Below, piece after piece: positions 46,682-50,825 of a stretch of 64,000 bases of DNA. Where the stretch lies: assembly GCA_027100635.1 (NCBI GenBank), contig JAMOOQ010000012.1, positions 62,001 through 126,000 on the forward strand. The letters run 5' to 3'. The position numbers and the translations under genes were made by a program. The notes under the pieces are model-generated. The model saw nothing but the letters and a program-made list of their open reading frames with translations. It made no database searches and had not been told where the DNA came from. The stretch comes from Campylobacteraceae bacterium. Lineage in GTDB: Bacteria; Campylobacterota; Campylobacteria; Campylobacterales; Sulfurovaceae. Numbering within the stretch: the first letter of the stretch is position 1; every line of letters starts with the position of its first letter.

Positions 46682-47803
46682 CTAATCTTCAAATTCTCTA
46701 TCTAAAAAATGTTTAAAAATTGTTGTTACTAAGTCTATCCTTTGACTAAAACTCTCTTTATTCGCTCGTTCATTTACTGTATGGTCACCATCACCATAAG
46801 GTCCCCAGCCATCAAGCGTTGCAACACCATTTGAAGAGATTATATTAGCATCACTAACCCCTCCTCGTCTTTCTGTTGGAAGTTTTATATCACATAATAA
46901 GTTAATTTTATTTATAAAATCTTTTTGTTCAAATGATGGTTGCATAACATCTCTTTGAATACCACCAGTAAGAGTTGAAATTGTACCATTTACATAAGAT
47001 TTGTTAACTATATTATTGATATCTTCTAATATTCTATCTTTTTCATCTACATCTGTATATCTAATTTCAAAAGTTAGTTTTGCTTTTGGAGAGATTGTAT
47101 TTGCACCAATTCCACCCTCAATTTTTCCAACATTAACAGTTGTTCCTTTTTGTATATTTGTTAATTTAATCAACTCTAATAATTTAAAAGAAGCTTCTGC
47201 ATTTGCATCGTGTCCATCTGTATAGTGGTTTCCTGCATGAGATGCTTTACCCTCAATATTTACAAAAAATGTACCCACACCTTTCCTTGCTTCTACCACT
47301 TCTCCATTTTTTCCAGCAGCCTCAAAAACCATACAGTAATCGTAATCTTTTGCCAACTCGGCTGTTAGATATTTGCTATCATCACTTCCAGTTTCTTCAT
47401 CACTAACCATTAATAAGTCTATGTTAAAAATCTCTTTTTGCTTATCATATATATTTTTAAGAGCCTGATATGCAACAAAATTACCACCTTTCATATCACA
47501 AACACCTGGACCATAAATCCACTCTTTATCTTCTCTAAAATCTTCAAATGTATCAGGGGGAAAAACAGTATCAAGATGACCTAATAAAAGTAATTTTTTA
47601 CCCTCTTTATGCTTTGATTTTAGATGAATATGGTTTCCTATATCATCTCTTTGATATTTTGTTAAAGAAAATCCAATTTCAACTAACCATTTTGAGAAAA
47701 TATCTCCATTAATATCAACACCTTTTTTATTTTTTGTCCATGAGTTTATATTAATAATCTCTTTAAGTTTATCTAAATTTAATTCTTGCATGATAAAAAT
47801 CAC
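46682..47803 (-). CDS. M20 family metallopeptidase (carboxypeptidase G2-like)
   Basis: LLLGHLDTVFP, GVCDMKGGNFVAYQAL, SDEETGSDDSKY, GGVSDANIISSNGVATLDGWGPYGDGDHTVNE. Confidence 0.9.
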   Translation of the reverse strand: MIFIMQELNLDKLKEIININSWTKNKKGVDINGDIFSKWLVEIGFSLTKYQRDDIGNHIHLKSKHKEGKKLLLLGHLDTVFPPDTFEDFREDKEWIYGPGVCDMKGGNFVAYQALKNIYDKQKEIFNIDLLMVSDEETGSDDSKYLTAELAKDYDYCMVFEAAGKNGEVVEARKGVGTFFVNIEGKASHAGNHYTDGHDANAEASFKLLELIKLTNIQKGTTVNVGKIEGGIGANTISPKAKLTFEIRYTDVDEKDRILEDINNIVNKSYVNGTISTLTGGIQRDVMQPSFEQKDFINKINLLCDIKLPTERRGGVSDANIISSNGVATLDGWGPYGDGDHTVNERANKESFSQRIDLVTTIFKHFLDREFED

Positions 47804-47885
47804 CTTTTCTAAAATTTATTGGTTTAAAACAACTGATATTTTATAAAAAAATAGTAAAATGTTACATTAAATTGAGGAGTATTAT

Positions 47886-48791
47886 ATGTCTCGTAAAATT
47901 GGTATGTGGTTGTATTCAAATGGTGGTGGAGATAAGATTCAAAAGAAGATTATCAAAAAGCTTAAAGATAGAGATATAGAGACTATTAATAATGTAAGGT
48001 TGCATGATTGTATTGCCAAAAATGGTCATATTTATAGAGATGATTTAAAAGTTGATAAATTAGATCTATTTTTCTCTTATAATGCTGGTGAACAAACTCA
48101 ATATCAGATGTATTTATATCAAGCACTTAATCGTATAATACCTATGATAAATTCTTATGACTCGTTTGCCTTAACAGAAGATAAGTTCCATACATCTTTT
48201 GTTTTAAGAAATCAGGGTATCCAAACTGCTGATTATAAGCTTTGTCATAGAGATAATGGAGAAGCACTTAAAAAGATTATAAAAAAATGGGATAAAATGG
48301 TTTATAAACCAACTGATGGTTGGGGTGGAGTTGGACTTACAAAGATTGAGAGTGAAGCTAATCTTGATATGCTTATGCCATTTCTAAATCAAATGGATTT
48401 AAGATATTTTTATGTTGAGAGATTTATTAATTATGATAATACTGATTTTAGAGTTGATATTGTAGATGGTAAGTTTGTAAGTTGTTATGGGAGAAAAGCT
48501 AGTGGAACTGACTGGCGAACTAATGTAACAGCTGGTGGTTCTGTATTTATGAGAGAGGCAAATGATGATATTATTAATTTGGCAATTAAAGCATGTAAAG
48601 CTTGTGGCGTTGATATTGGTGGTGTTGATATAATTTATGATAGAGATAAAGAAGAATATGTTGTTCTTGAGGTAAATGGAATTCCTGCATTTGCTACACC
48701 AGAACAAGAAAAAATGGGATTAAATTTTAATAAGAAAAAGATAGACTTAATTGTAGACCTAATTGATAGGAAAACAAAAAAGGCTAAATAA
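47886..48791 (+). CDS. ATP-grasp ligase (RimK-like)
   Basis: DKFHTSFVLRNQGIQTADYK, MVYKPTDGWGGVGL, FRVDIVDGKFVSCYGRKA, VLEVNGIPAF. Confidence 0.78.
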   Translation: MSRKIGMWLYSNGGGDKIQKKIIKKLKDRDIETINNVRLHDCIAKNGHIYRDDLKVDKLDLFFSYNAGEQTQYQMYLYQALNRIIPMINSYDSFALTEDKFHTSFVLRNQGIQTADYKLCHRDNGEALKKIIKKWDKMVYKPTDGWGGVGLTKIESEANLDMLMPFLNQMDLRYFYVERFINYDNTDFRVDIVDGKFVSCYGRKASGTDWRTNVTAGGSVFMREANDDIINLAIKACKACGVDIGGVDIIYDRDKEEYVVLEVNGIPAFATPEQEKMGLNFNKKKIDLIVDLIDRKTKKAK

Positions 48792-48792
48792 A

Positions 48793-49332
48793 ATGGAAGC
48801 AGTAGAATTAAAGAATTATAGTTATGAAGATTATTTAGAAATAGATACTACAACTTCTAATGATAGAATGGTTGAGCTTATTTTTGGTGAAATTTATATG
48901 ATGAGTGGTTGTAGTATAAAACATCAAAATACGGTAGGTAATCTTTATTTTAATATAAGAAAAAATAAAAAAACGAAATGTAAAGTAGTAATTGCTCCAT
49001 TTGATATTAAAATTAATATTAAAAATAATATATCAGTTACACAACCTGATGTTATGATTTTCTGTAAAGATAAGCAATTACCTTGTGCTGTTTTTGAAGT
49101 TTTATCAAAATCTACTGCATATAAAGATAAAGGTGTTAAAAAAGAGTTATATGAGATAGCAGGTATTAAAGAATATTTTATAATTAATACTGAATTAAAA
49201 ATTATTGATAAATATATTTTAAAGAAAAATGGATATTTTTATGTAAGAGGCTTTAATATAAAAGATGAGATAAAAATAGATTGTGTTGATGTAATACTAA
49301 ATGTATCTGATATATTTGATGATATAGAGTAA
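48793..49332 (+). CDS. Uma2 family (DUF820) putative endonuclease
   Basis: YLEIDTTTSNDRMVELIFGEIYMMSG, QPDVMIFC, VFEVLSKSTAYKDKGVKKELYEIAGIKEYFIIN; start at internal ATG 48793. Confidence 0.85.
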   Translation: MEAVELKNYSYEDYLEIDTTTSNDRMVELIFGEIYMMSGCSIKHQNTVGNLYFNIRKNKKTKCKVVIAPFDIKINIKNNISVTQPDVMIFCKDKQLPCAVFEVLSKSTAYKDKGVKKELYEIAGIKEYFIINTELKIIDKYILKKNGYFYVRGFNIKDEIKIDCVDVILNVSDIFDDIE

Positions 49333-49360
49333 AAAATAAAAATAAAAATAAAAATAAAAA
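49331..49360. repeat. Hexanucleotide simple sequence repeat (TAAAAA)n in ATP-grasp leader
   Basis: aaaaaataaaaataaaaataaaaataaaaa read directly. Confidence 0.85.
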
Positions 49361-49374
49361 CAAAAGGAAAAAGA

Positions 49375-50790
49375 ATGGCAAAAAGCAAAGAGAGTAAATT
49401 ACCAAAATTAGGTCTATTATATATGGACTATGTATTAAGATTTTTTGATAAGTCAAACTTCAAAGGTTGGCCTGATAAAATTGAAATTGTAACATATCAC
49501 TGGAAAAATGATAAAGCTAGATTTATTAGAGAAGTTAAAAGAAAAAAGATAGATGTTTTAGTTGGAAATATTCCTGCAACTGCTTATGAAACATTTAGAG
49601 AGATTGCAAGAGAGTTACCAAATGTAAGATTTATGCCATCTATGGATACACAGTTTTCTAATAAATCAAAAGAGAATGTTACAAGATTTGCATGGAAATA
49701 TGATTTACCAATTCCAAAGACATATATCTATTACAAAAAAGATAATGCAACTAAATTTTTAAAAAAATGTGACTATCCAAAGATAATTAAAAAATCTTAC
49801 GGACCATCAAATTATGGTGGATATTTTGTACACAAAGTAGATTCTCCAAAAGAGGCAATATCTTTATTTAAAGAGAAAAAGTATTATCCTCAATATTTTC
49901 AAGATTTTGTCCCTATGGAAGCTGATATTAGAGTTATGCTTATTGGTCATAAACCAGTTTGTGCATTTTGGAGAAGAGCTCCAGAGGGTGAATGGCTTAC
50001 AAACACTTCTCAGGGTGGAAGTATGGATTATATGGATGTTCCAAAAAATGTTCTTGATTTAGCTGTTAAAACTAGTAAGGCTGCAAAAGCTGAATATTGG
50101 GCTTGTGATATTGCTTATGGTAAAGATGGAAAAGTAAGAATCTTAGAGTGTGCCACAGCATTTGCAGCATTCCCTTATATTAGAGATTGGATTGGGCAAT
50201 ATATTATGTGGAATCTAAGTGATGGTAGATTTAATATGCCTCATATGCCTATGTTTAACTGGGAAGAATTGGGTAAAATCAATCCTGATTTACTTAGAAC
50301 AATGAGAAATATTACATTTGGTAAATATAATCCAAGTTATGATGGTGCATATTTTGGAAACAAAAAAAGAGTATATGGTGATGCAAAAAAATATATTCAT
50401 GAATTAGATGAAGAGTATCAAGTTCTTAATATACAAGCAAGAGACTCCGAAGAGTGGCCAAGTGAAAAATGGAATTATCAAGATAATTATAAAACTACTA
50501 AATTAAGAGATATTCCTACTACAGATATTATTTCTGATGATGAATCAGTTGATAGTCCTCAGGCTAAAACAATTGAATTAGATAAACAAGAGATGATTAA
50601 AATATTAAAATCTGTAAAAGGGATTGGAAATAAAAAAGCTAAAGAAATTTTAAATCAATTTAGTATGGTAGAACTTGTTGATATTTTTGAAACAAAATCA
50701 AAAAAAATAAGAGATGAGATTACATGGTTCAATAAAGATTTATCTAAAAAATTAAACTCTGAGTGGAAAAACTTTAAAAGTAAAATATAA
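49375..50790 (+). CDS. ATP-grasp ligase with C-terminal helix-hairpin-helix segment
   Basis: KYDLPIPKTYIYYKKD, PKIIKKSYGPSNYGGYFVH, DIRVMLIGHKPVCAFWRRAPEGEWLTNTSQGG, ILECATAFAAF; C-terminal ILKSVKGIGNKKAKEILNQF. Confidence 0.75.
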   Translation: MAKSKESKLPKLGLLYMDYVLRFFDKSNFKGWPDKIEIVTYHWKNDKARFIREVKRKKIDVLVGNIPATAYETFREIARELPNVRFMPSMDTQFSNKSKENVTRFAWKYDLPIPKTYIYYKKDNATKFLKKCDYPKIIKKSYGPSNYGGYFVHKVDSPKEAISLFKEKKYYPQYFQDFVPMEADIRVMLIGHKPVCAFWRRAPEGEWLTNTSQGGSMDYMDVPKNVLDLAVKTSKAAKAEYWACDIAYGKDGKVRILECATAFAAFPYIRDWIGQYIMWNLSDGRFNMPHMPMFNWEELGKINPDLLRTMRNITFGKYNPSYDGAYFGNKKRVYGDAKKYIHELDEEYQVLNIQARDSEEWPSEKWNYQDNYKTTKLRDIPTTDIISDDESVDSPQAKTIELDKQEMIKILKSVKGIGNKKAKEILNQFSMVELVDIFETKSKKIRDEITWFNKDLSKKLNSEWKNFKSKI

Positions 50791-50801
50791 AAATATTATA
50801 A

Positions 50802-50825
50802 TAGACTTCCTTTAAAGGAAGTCTA
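50802..50825. terminator. Perfect hairpin after ATP-grasp gene
   Basis: TAGACTTCCTT-TA-AAGGAAGTCTA. Confidence 0.55.

Follow-up and report, generated by a model that had tools for sequence, protein, structure and literature searches.

Glutamylation by enzyme pairs that write and erase the mark has precedent in the TTLL/CCP cycle (PMC13137484), and the RimK/RimB pair provides a bacterial precedent for such a glutamate writer-eraser cycle (PMC11957791). Here we describe a locus in a 64,000-nucleotide stretch (the window) of a Campylobacteraceae bacterium, contig JAMOOQ010000012.1 of assembly GCA_027100635.1, which contains the greater part of a gene set, inherited together and so far without a name, for two bond-making and two bond-breaking enzymes. 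The former are the ATP-grasp ligases GRASP1 and GRASP2, and the latter an M20 metallopeptidase and, in relatives, an M14 zinc carboxypeptidase. This four-gene module is real and apparently undescribed; the class of chemistry is known, the gene combination is new relative to the literature searched, and a full-text search, limited in reach, returned no description of the gene set.

Like the TTLL/CCP cycle, the module opposes an ATP-grasp ligase to a carboxypeptidase of the M14 family that bears a signature of acidic specificity, the two being co-inherited here (51 genomes share both), but it is bacterial, has two ligases and an extra M20 enzyme, and its M14 is similar to carboxypeptidases A and B (CPA/B) and not shown to be CCP-like. 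With RimABK it has in common a RimK-type ligase, a putative glutamate-removing protease and a patchy, horizontally spread distribution. However, the eraser RimB is a retropepsin whereas the candidate erasers of the module are metallocarboxypeptidases, and the module has a second ligase with an HhH domain, no rimA- or rimB-like neighbour and no indication of ribosomal protein S6 as substrate. The LysX/ArgX-LysW-LysK systems also join an ATP-grasp ligase with an M20 hydrolase, although the module is without the LysW carrier or biosynthetic genes at the locus and adds M14. As in the NAGGN operon (asnO-ngg-peptidase), amide-forming enzymes and a peptidase share one operon, but the ligases belong to other families, GNAT and asparagine synthase are missing, and M14 and M20 replace the glutamyl aminopeptidase. 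GRASP1 is closest in sequence to MptN, which with CofF represents the archaeal cofactor glutamate ligases, yet the scores lie far below the equivalog cut-offs and no cofactor pathway is found at the locus. The GAK system has an ATP-grasp enzyme of the RimK clade as well, but the two ligases score 52 and 46.5 bits against a cut-off of 300 for TIGR04356, in agreement with the initial annotation, which had discounted this system. The GAK partners (CofD-like, HprK-related kinase and amphi-Trp) were not recognised among the conserved neighbours of the module.

Conservation and co-inheritance of the module

A scan with one genome per bacterial and archaeal species gave 172 GRASP2 relatives, the best 80 of which were analysed as loci, all labelled Campylobacterota except one (L028) labelled only "bacterium"; sampling beyond this phylum consisted of the same scan together with plasmid, phage and viral collections. 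Unsupervised clustering of every open reading frame in these 80 loci produced four recurring families, namely GRASP2 (80), GRASP1 (50), a protein of about 858 amino acids (49) and M20 (43). The 858-residue protein, an M14 zinc carboxypeptidase with fn3 and DNRLRE-type domains after the peptidase part, starts with no evident signal peptide and is encoded downstream of GRASP2 in most relatives. All four genes are found in 37 of the 80 loci (M20 divergent in 27 and co-directional in 10), the usual order being M20 and then GRASP1-GRASP2-M14, with gaps mostly below 110 bp or overlapping, an operon-like structure. The adjacency of M20, GRASP1 and GRASP2 exceeds chance, the same neighbours recurring in dozens of other loci. 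The initial annotation had proposed a module of M20, the two ligases and a Uma2-family nuclease; the first three are indeed a conserved unit with near-perfect co-occurrence, while the place of the fourth gene, given to Uma2 (0 of 80 loci), is taken by M14, which is missing from the window.

Among 397 Campylobacterota genomes, 52 carried GRASP2, 53 carried M14 and 51 carried both, with 25 of the 68 genera represented (hypergeometric p ~1e-60, phylogeny ignored). At the level of the class (200 genomes), 16 have all four genes, with pairwise hypergeometric p values of about 1e-20 to 1e-24. Presence is patchy within single genera (g2, g10, g11 and g48), where GRASP2 and M14 come and go as a pair. 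In Sulfurimonas-type genomes (G009, G129, G319, G333 and G343) GRASP2 lies 0.7–1.4 Mb from M14 and both are retained, which argues for joint function and not for joint transfer alone; where read (G009 and G129), the M14 locus also carries M20 and GRASP1. The only genome with GRASP2 and no M14 is that of the window, which is 77% complete, and two have M14 without GRASP2 (G256 and G381). The module is a compact, phylogenetically clean and experimentally accessible system, found in about one eighth of the sampled Campylobacterota genomes, whose function is directly testable given this near-perfect co-occurrence.

The complete unit was also found in one Gammaproteobacterium, on a megaplasmid of Photobacterium sp. 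DA100, with the same order, a divergent M20 and ATGA overlaps among M14, GRASP2 and GRASP1 (identities of 49% for M14, 58% for GRASP2, 53% for GRASP1 and 52% for M20), so that the module is present as one unit in two phyla. It occupies different genomic sites in different lineages. In the trees, the GRASP1 of the window groups with an Arcobacter metagenome-assembled genome (support 0.996), next to Sulfurimonas, and its M20 with its own genus (support 0.884); judging from these sequences, the window copy looks mosaic or recombined, and its M14 is missing. A phage origin was rejected, as there was no relative in viral contigs and tblastn matches in phages were limited to distant RimK-like genes (21–29% identity).

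Partial copies were seen as well. One genome (G037, C1:157167-157466, locus L019) has a GRASP2 remnant of 102 amino acids with two in-frame stops, a decaying module copy. On a 4156 bp contig (L172, G105 C50) M20-GRASP1 is followed by an unrelated small open reading frame near the contig end, and neither GRASP2 nor M14 was found in G105. G061 has an M20 orthologue with 60% identity (C1:495174-496259, L173) and neither the ligases nor M14; its completeness is given as 100%.

Ligases and peptidases

By the terms of the initial annotation, rare co-occurrence of the genes or placement of both ligases in a characterised pathway would have refuted its proposal; the conserved genes proved to co-occur almost perfectly, and no NCBIfam equivalog cut-off was reached by GRASP1 or GRASP2. 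The best NCBIfam match of GRASP1 is MptN (142.8 bits, cut-off 350), followed by the RimK family model (133.3 bits, cut-off 143.4), and its best PDB profile is RimK 5zct (1.4e-16), so that its closest relatives by either search are glutamate ligases. Against PRK10446 (RimK), GRASP1 scores 46.7 and GRASP2 21.6 bits (cut-off 331). The catalytic residues of GRASP1 are intact and invariant residues are present, with an unbroken E262-x-N264 metal motif and a RimK-like R-K-A...D-W-R-T-N segment. The nearest NCBIfam models for GRASP2 are the RimK family model and LysX, and the PDB profile search places it nearest to LysX/ArgX, with which Foldseek on a low-confidence model agrees (global superpositions, with root-mean-square deviations of ~14, serving for family placement alone). 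Every sequence of the family has E-C-A (E258-C-A260) in place of E-x-N, and catalytic activity of GRASP2 is accordingly plausible and not assured; PurK-type ATP-grasps are likewise without the Asn metal ligand. Its HhH domain has weak RuvA similarity (TIGR00084, 4e-4) with G416, G418 and K421 conserved, and AlphaFold models the HhH helices better than any other part of the protein, mostly at pLDDT 80–90.

The nearest solved structure to M20 is CPG2 (1cg2, 1.5e-27). Its metal and catalytic residues H76, D103, E136/E137, E161 and H341 are invariant in 37 sequences, leaving the di-metal site intact, and it scores 190 bits against PRK06133, below the cut-off of 349. In M14 the zinc ligands H65, E68 and H188 are invariant, and so are Arg123, Asn139-Arg140 and Glu261 (CPA Arg127, Asn144-Arg145 and Glu270); its sequence and fold matches are CPA/B/T-type, with no CCP among the matches listed. 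A HMMER alignment to CPA4 puts Arg247, invariant in the M14 family of the module, on CPA Ile255. In funnelins residue 255 sets the specificity, and Arg255 in carboxypeptidase O corresponds to acidic C-terminal specificity (PMC9925722). By this alignment the M14 of the module carries the same Arg at CPA 255, a signature that would predict acidic specificity. Other bacterial M14 enzymes, judged from six stretches, show I, T or D at this position, although one of the six aligns unclearly; two, both from S. meliloti, resemble each other in the segment.

A putative cycle and its alternatives

The module probably adds acidic amino acids, e.g., glutamate, to a cell component and then removes them. 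In its fuller form, a writer/eraser cycle that adds and removes Glu (or Asp) on a putative intracellular substrate, outside membership of TTLL/CCP and RimK/RimB, this is the explanation that we favour, tentatively and at slightly less than even chances. At the expense of ATP, the two ligases would activate a carboxylate and attach to it, through an amide bond, an amino acid that is most likely acidic (glutamate or another). They would probably act one after the other or at two sites. M14 would then remove the acidic residue or residues from the C terminus of the product. What is left, an amide or dipeptide, may be split by M20, so that the modification would turn over. The Arg255 of M14, the CPG2-like M20 and the Glu-ligase-like GRASP1 together suggest that an acidic residue is added by ligases and removed by metallocarboxypeptidases. 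All module proteins appear to be cytoplasmic, and the HhH of GRASP2 with the fn3/DNRLRE of M14 suggest a macromolecular partner. The direction in which the cycle runs, the glutamate moiety and the macromolecular nature of the substrate are inferred. The make/unmake idea of the initial annotation is strengthened by the co-inherited M20-GRASP1-GRASP2 unit and by a second carboxypeptidase with an acidic signature. More specifically, a bacterial protein-glutamylation code convergent with TTLL/CCP, with ATP-grasp writers, a cytoplasmic M14 eraser and action through the HhH of GRASP2 on a target associated with nucleic acids or ribosomes, seems rather unlikely. If protein glutamylation were true, the writer/eraser pair would be bacterial and its eraser a metallocarboxypeptidase, in contrast to the known bacterial eraser RimB, a retropepsin.

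Several observations weigh against a glutamate cycle. Searches of S6 tails and for precursors or carriers did not find the substrate. The readable S6 C-terminal tails (16 of 30) are alike in nine carriers and seven non-carriers, most ending in EA, and give no hint of S6 as substrate. The scores of the ligases against MptN and RimK fall far under the equivalog cut-offs, so that they might transfer another residue. The Asn that usually serves as metal ligand is missing from GRASP2, whose model (overall pLDDT 63.5, linker <50) supports the fold only. CPG2 Lys208, which we take to be the residue tied to glutamate preference, is not kept in the alignment used, leaving this preference of M20 unproven. 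In M14, CPA Tyr248 is replaced by H, K or N, and its model again supports the fold only, with active-site loops at pLDDT <50. M14 is also missing from the window genome, which is 77% complete.

The main rival is a small peptide metabolite of non-ribosomal origin (for instance a di- or tripeptide serving as osmolyte, redox compound or store) built by the ligases in two steps and dismantled by M14 and M20, with no protein substrate, which we regard as quite possible if less probable than the writer/eraser cycle. Marine or vent genera make up most of the carriers named among the best 80 loci, with Photobacterium in addition, and M20 enzymes commonly split dipeptides. Moreover, the NAGGN operon joins ligases and a peptidase for an osmolyte (PMC8070244), and linked peptide ligases often work in succession (PMC4431377). 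However, an 858-residue M14 with fn3 and DNRLRE domains and an HhH ligase are large for a small metabolite, and the conserved neighbours of the module in these loci include no transporter and no asnB-like or GNAT gene. Should the module make such a peptide, vent and marine sulfur oxidisers would seem to have a metabolite that has so far gone unrecognised. A poly-alpha-glutamate cycle, in which GRASP1 would make a Glu polymer as nitrogen or osmotic store and M14 and M20 would degrade it to free Glu, draws on the synthesis of poly-alpha-L-Glu by RimK in vitro (PMC11957791) and on an Arg255 suited to stepwise trimming, but leaves unexplained the second, LysX-like HhH ligase, as conserved as GRASP1, and we judge it improbable.

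The remaining explanations fit the data poorly. An amino-group carrier protein pathway of the LysW/LysX/LysK type would account for the proximity of GRASP2 to LysX/ArgX in sequence and fold and for a weak LysK-type match of M20, but it is largely refuted and very improbable, since TIGR01206 was not found in the 77% complete window genome while the positive-control genomes matched, and no conserved small open reading frame exists at the module. The same lack of a conserved precursor gene, together with the absence of a conserved transporter nearby and scores more than 300 bits short of the maturase cut-offs, largely refutes a graspetide-like cluster for a ribosomally synthesized and post-translationally modified peptide, despite the presence of ATP-grasps and peptidases and weak MvdC/SAV_5884 matches of GRASP2; its likelihood is slighter still. 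Finally, chance neighbours without joint function, which the varied genomic sites might recommend, are refuted by co-occurrence (51/53) and linkage in two phyla, and their probability is close to negligible.

The window locus and neighbouring genes

The four genes of the window are all open reading frames, and the positions and families given in the initial annotation agree with these frames and with Pfam (Table 1). M20 is divergent from the ligase run, as had been described at about 80 bp, with a spacing of 82 bp from a GTG start or 94 bp from the likelier ATG, and the perfect hairpin reported after the second ligase is present. M14 was not found in the window copy or its 77%-complete assembly.

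Table 1. Features of the locus, in window coordinates.
Feature	Position	Strand	Evidence and remarks
M20 metallopeptidase, CPG2/DapE-like	46682..47803	-	Pfam Peptidase_M20 7.8e-20 and M20_dimer; likely start ATG 47791
Divergent intergenic region, M20 vs GRASP1	47792..47885	.	Sequence read
GRASP1, RimK/MptN-like ATP-grasp ligase	47886..48791	+	Pfam RimK 8e-19
Uma2-family nuclease	48793..49332 (alternative start 48763)	+	Pfam Uma2 3.1e-21; stray insertion
GRASP2, LysX/ArgX/RimK-like ATP-grasp ligase, C-terminal HhH domain	49375..50790	+	Pfam RimK 5e-13
HhH (RuvA-like) domain of GRASP2, residues ~403-471	50581..50787	+	TIGR00084 weak match 403-446
Perfect hairpin, probable terminator, between GRASP2 and tolB	50802..50825	+	10 bp stem

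Uma2 was rejected as a module member: none of the 80 related loci has it, the genus holds several copies of the family at other places, and it is an insertion specific to the window genome. This genome (G000; also at C25, C4 and C42) has four Uma2 copies and three others of the same genus have five each, at other sites; overall, 2–5 copies were seen per checked genome of the genus, and in the window one copy lies between GRASP1 and GRASP2.

Translation genes adjoin the module in some relatives. In three Sulfurimonas-type loci (L020, L168 and L170) a lone GRASP2 lies between efp (elongation factor P, EF-P) and dnaE, ~30 bp after efp, with M20, GRASP1 and M14 elsewhere in the genome (shown for G009 and G129), an adjacency to be taken as a lead only; EF-P itself was rejected as substrate, its lysine loop being ordinary in the genomes seen. 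In two Sulfurovum-type contigs the ribosomal S6 operon rpsF-ssb-rpsR adjoins the module (L049 1648-8875, also with efp, and L073 downstream of M14), possibly a link to translation or chance.

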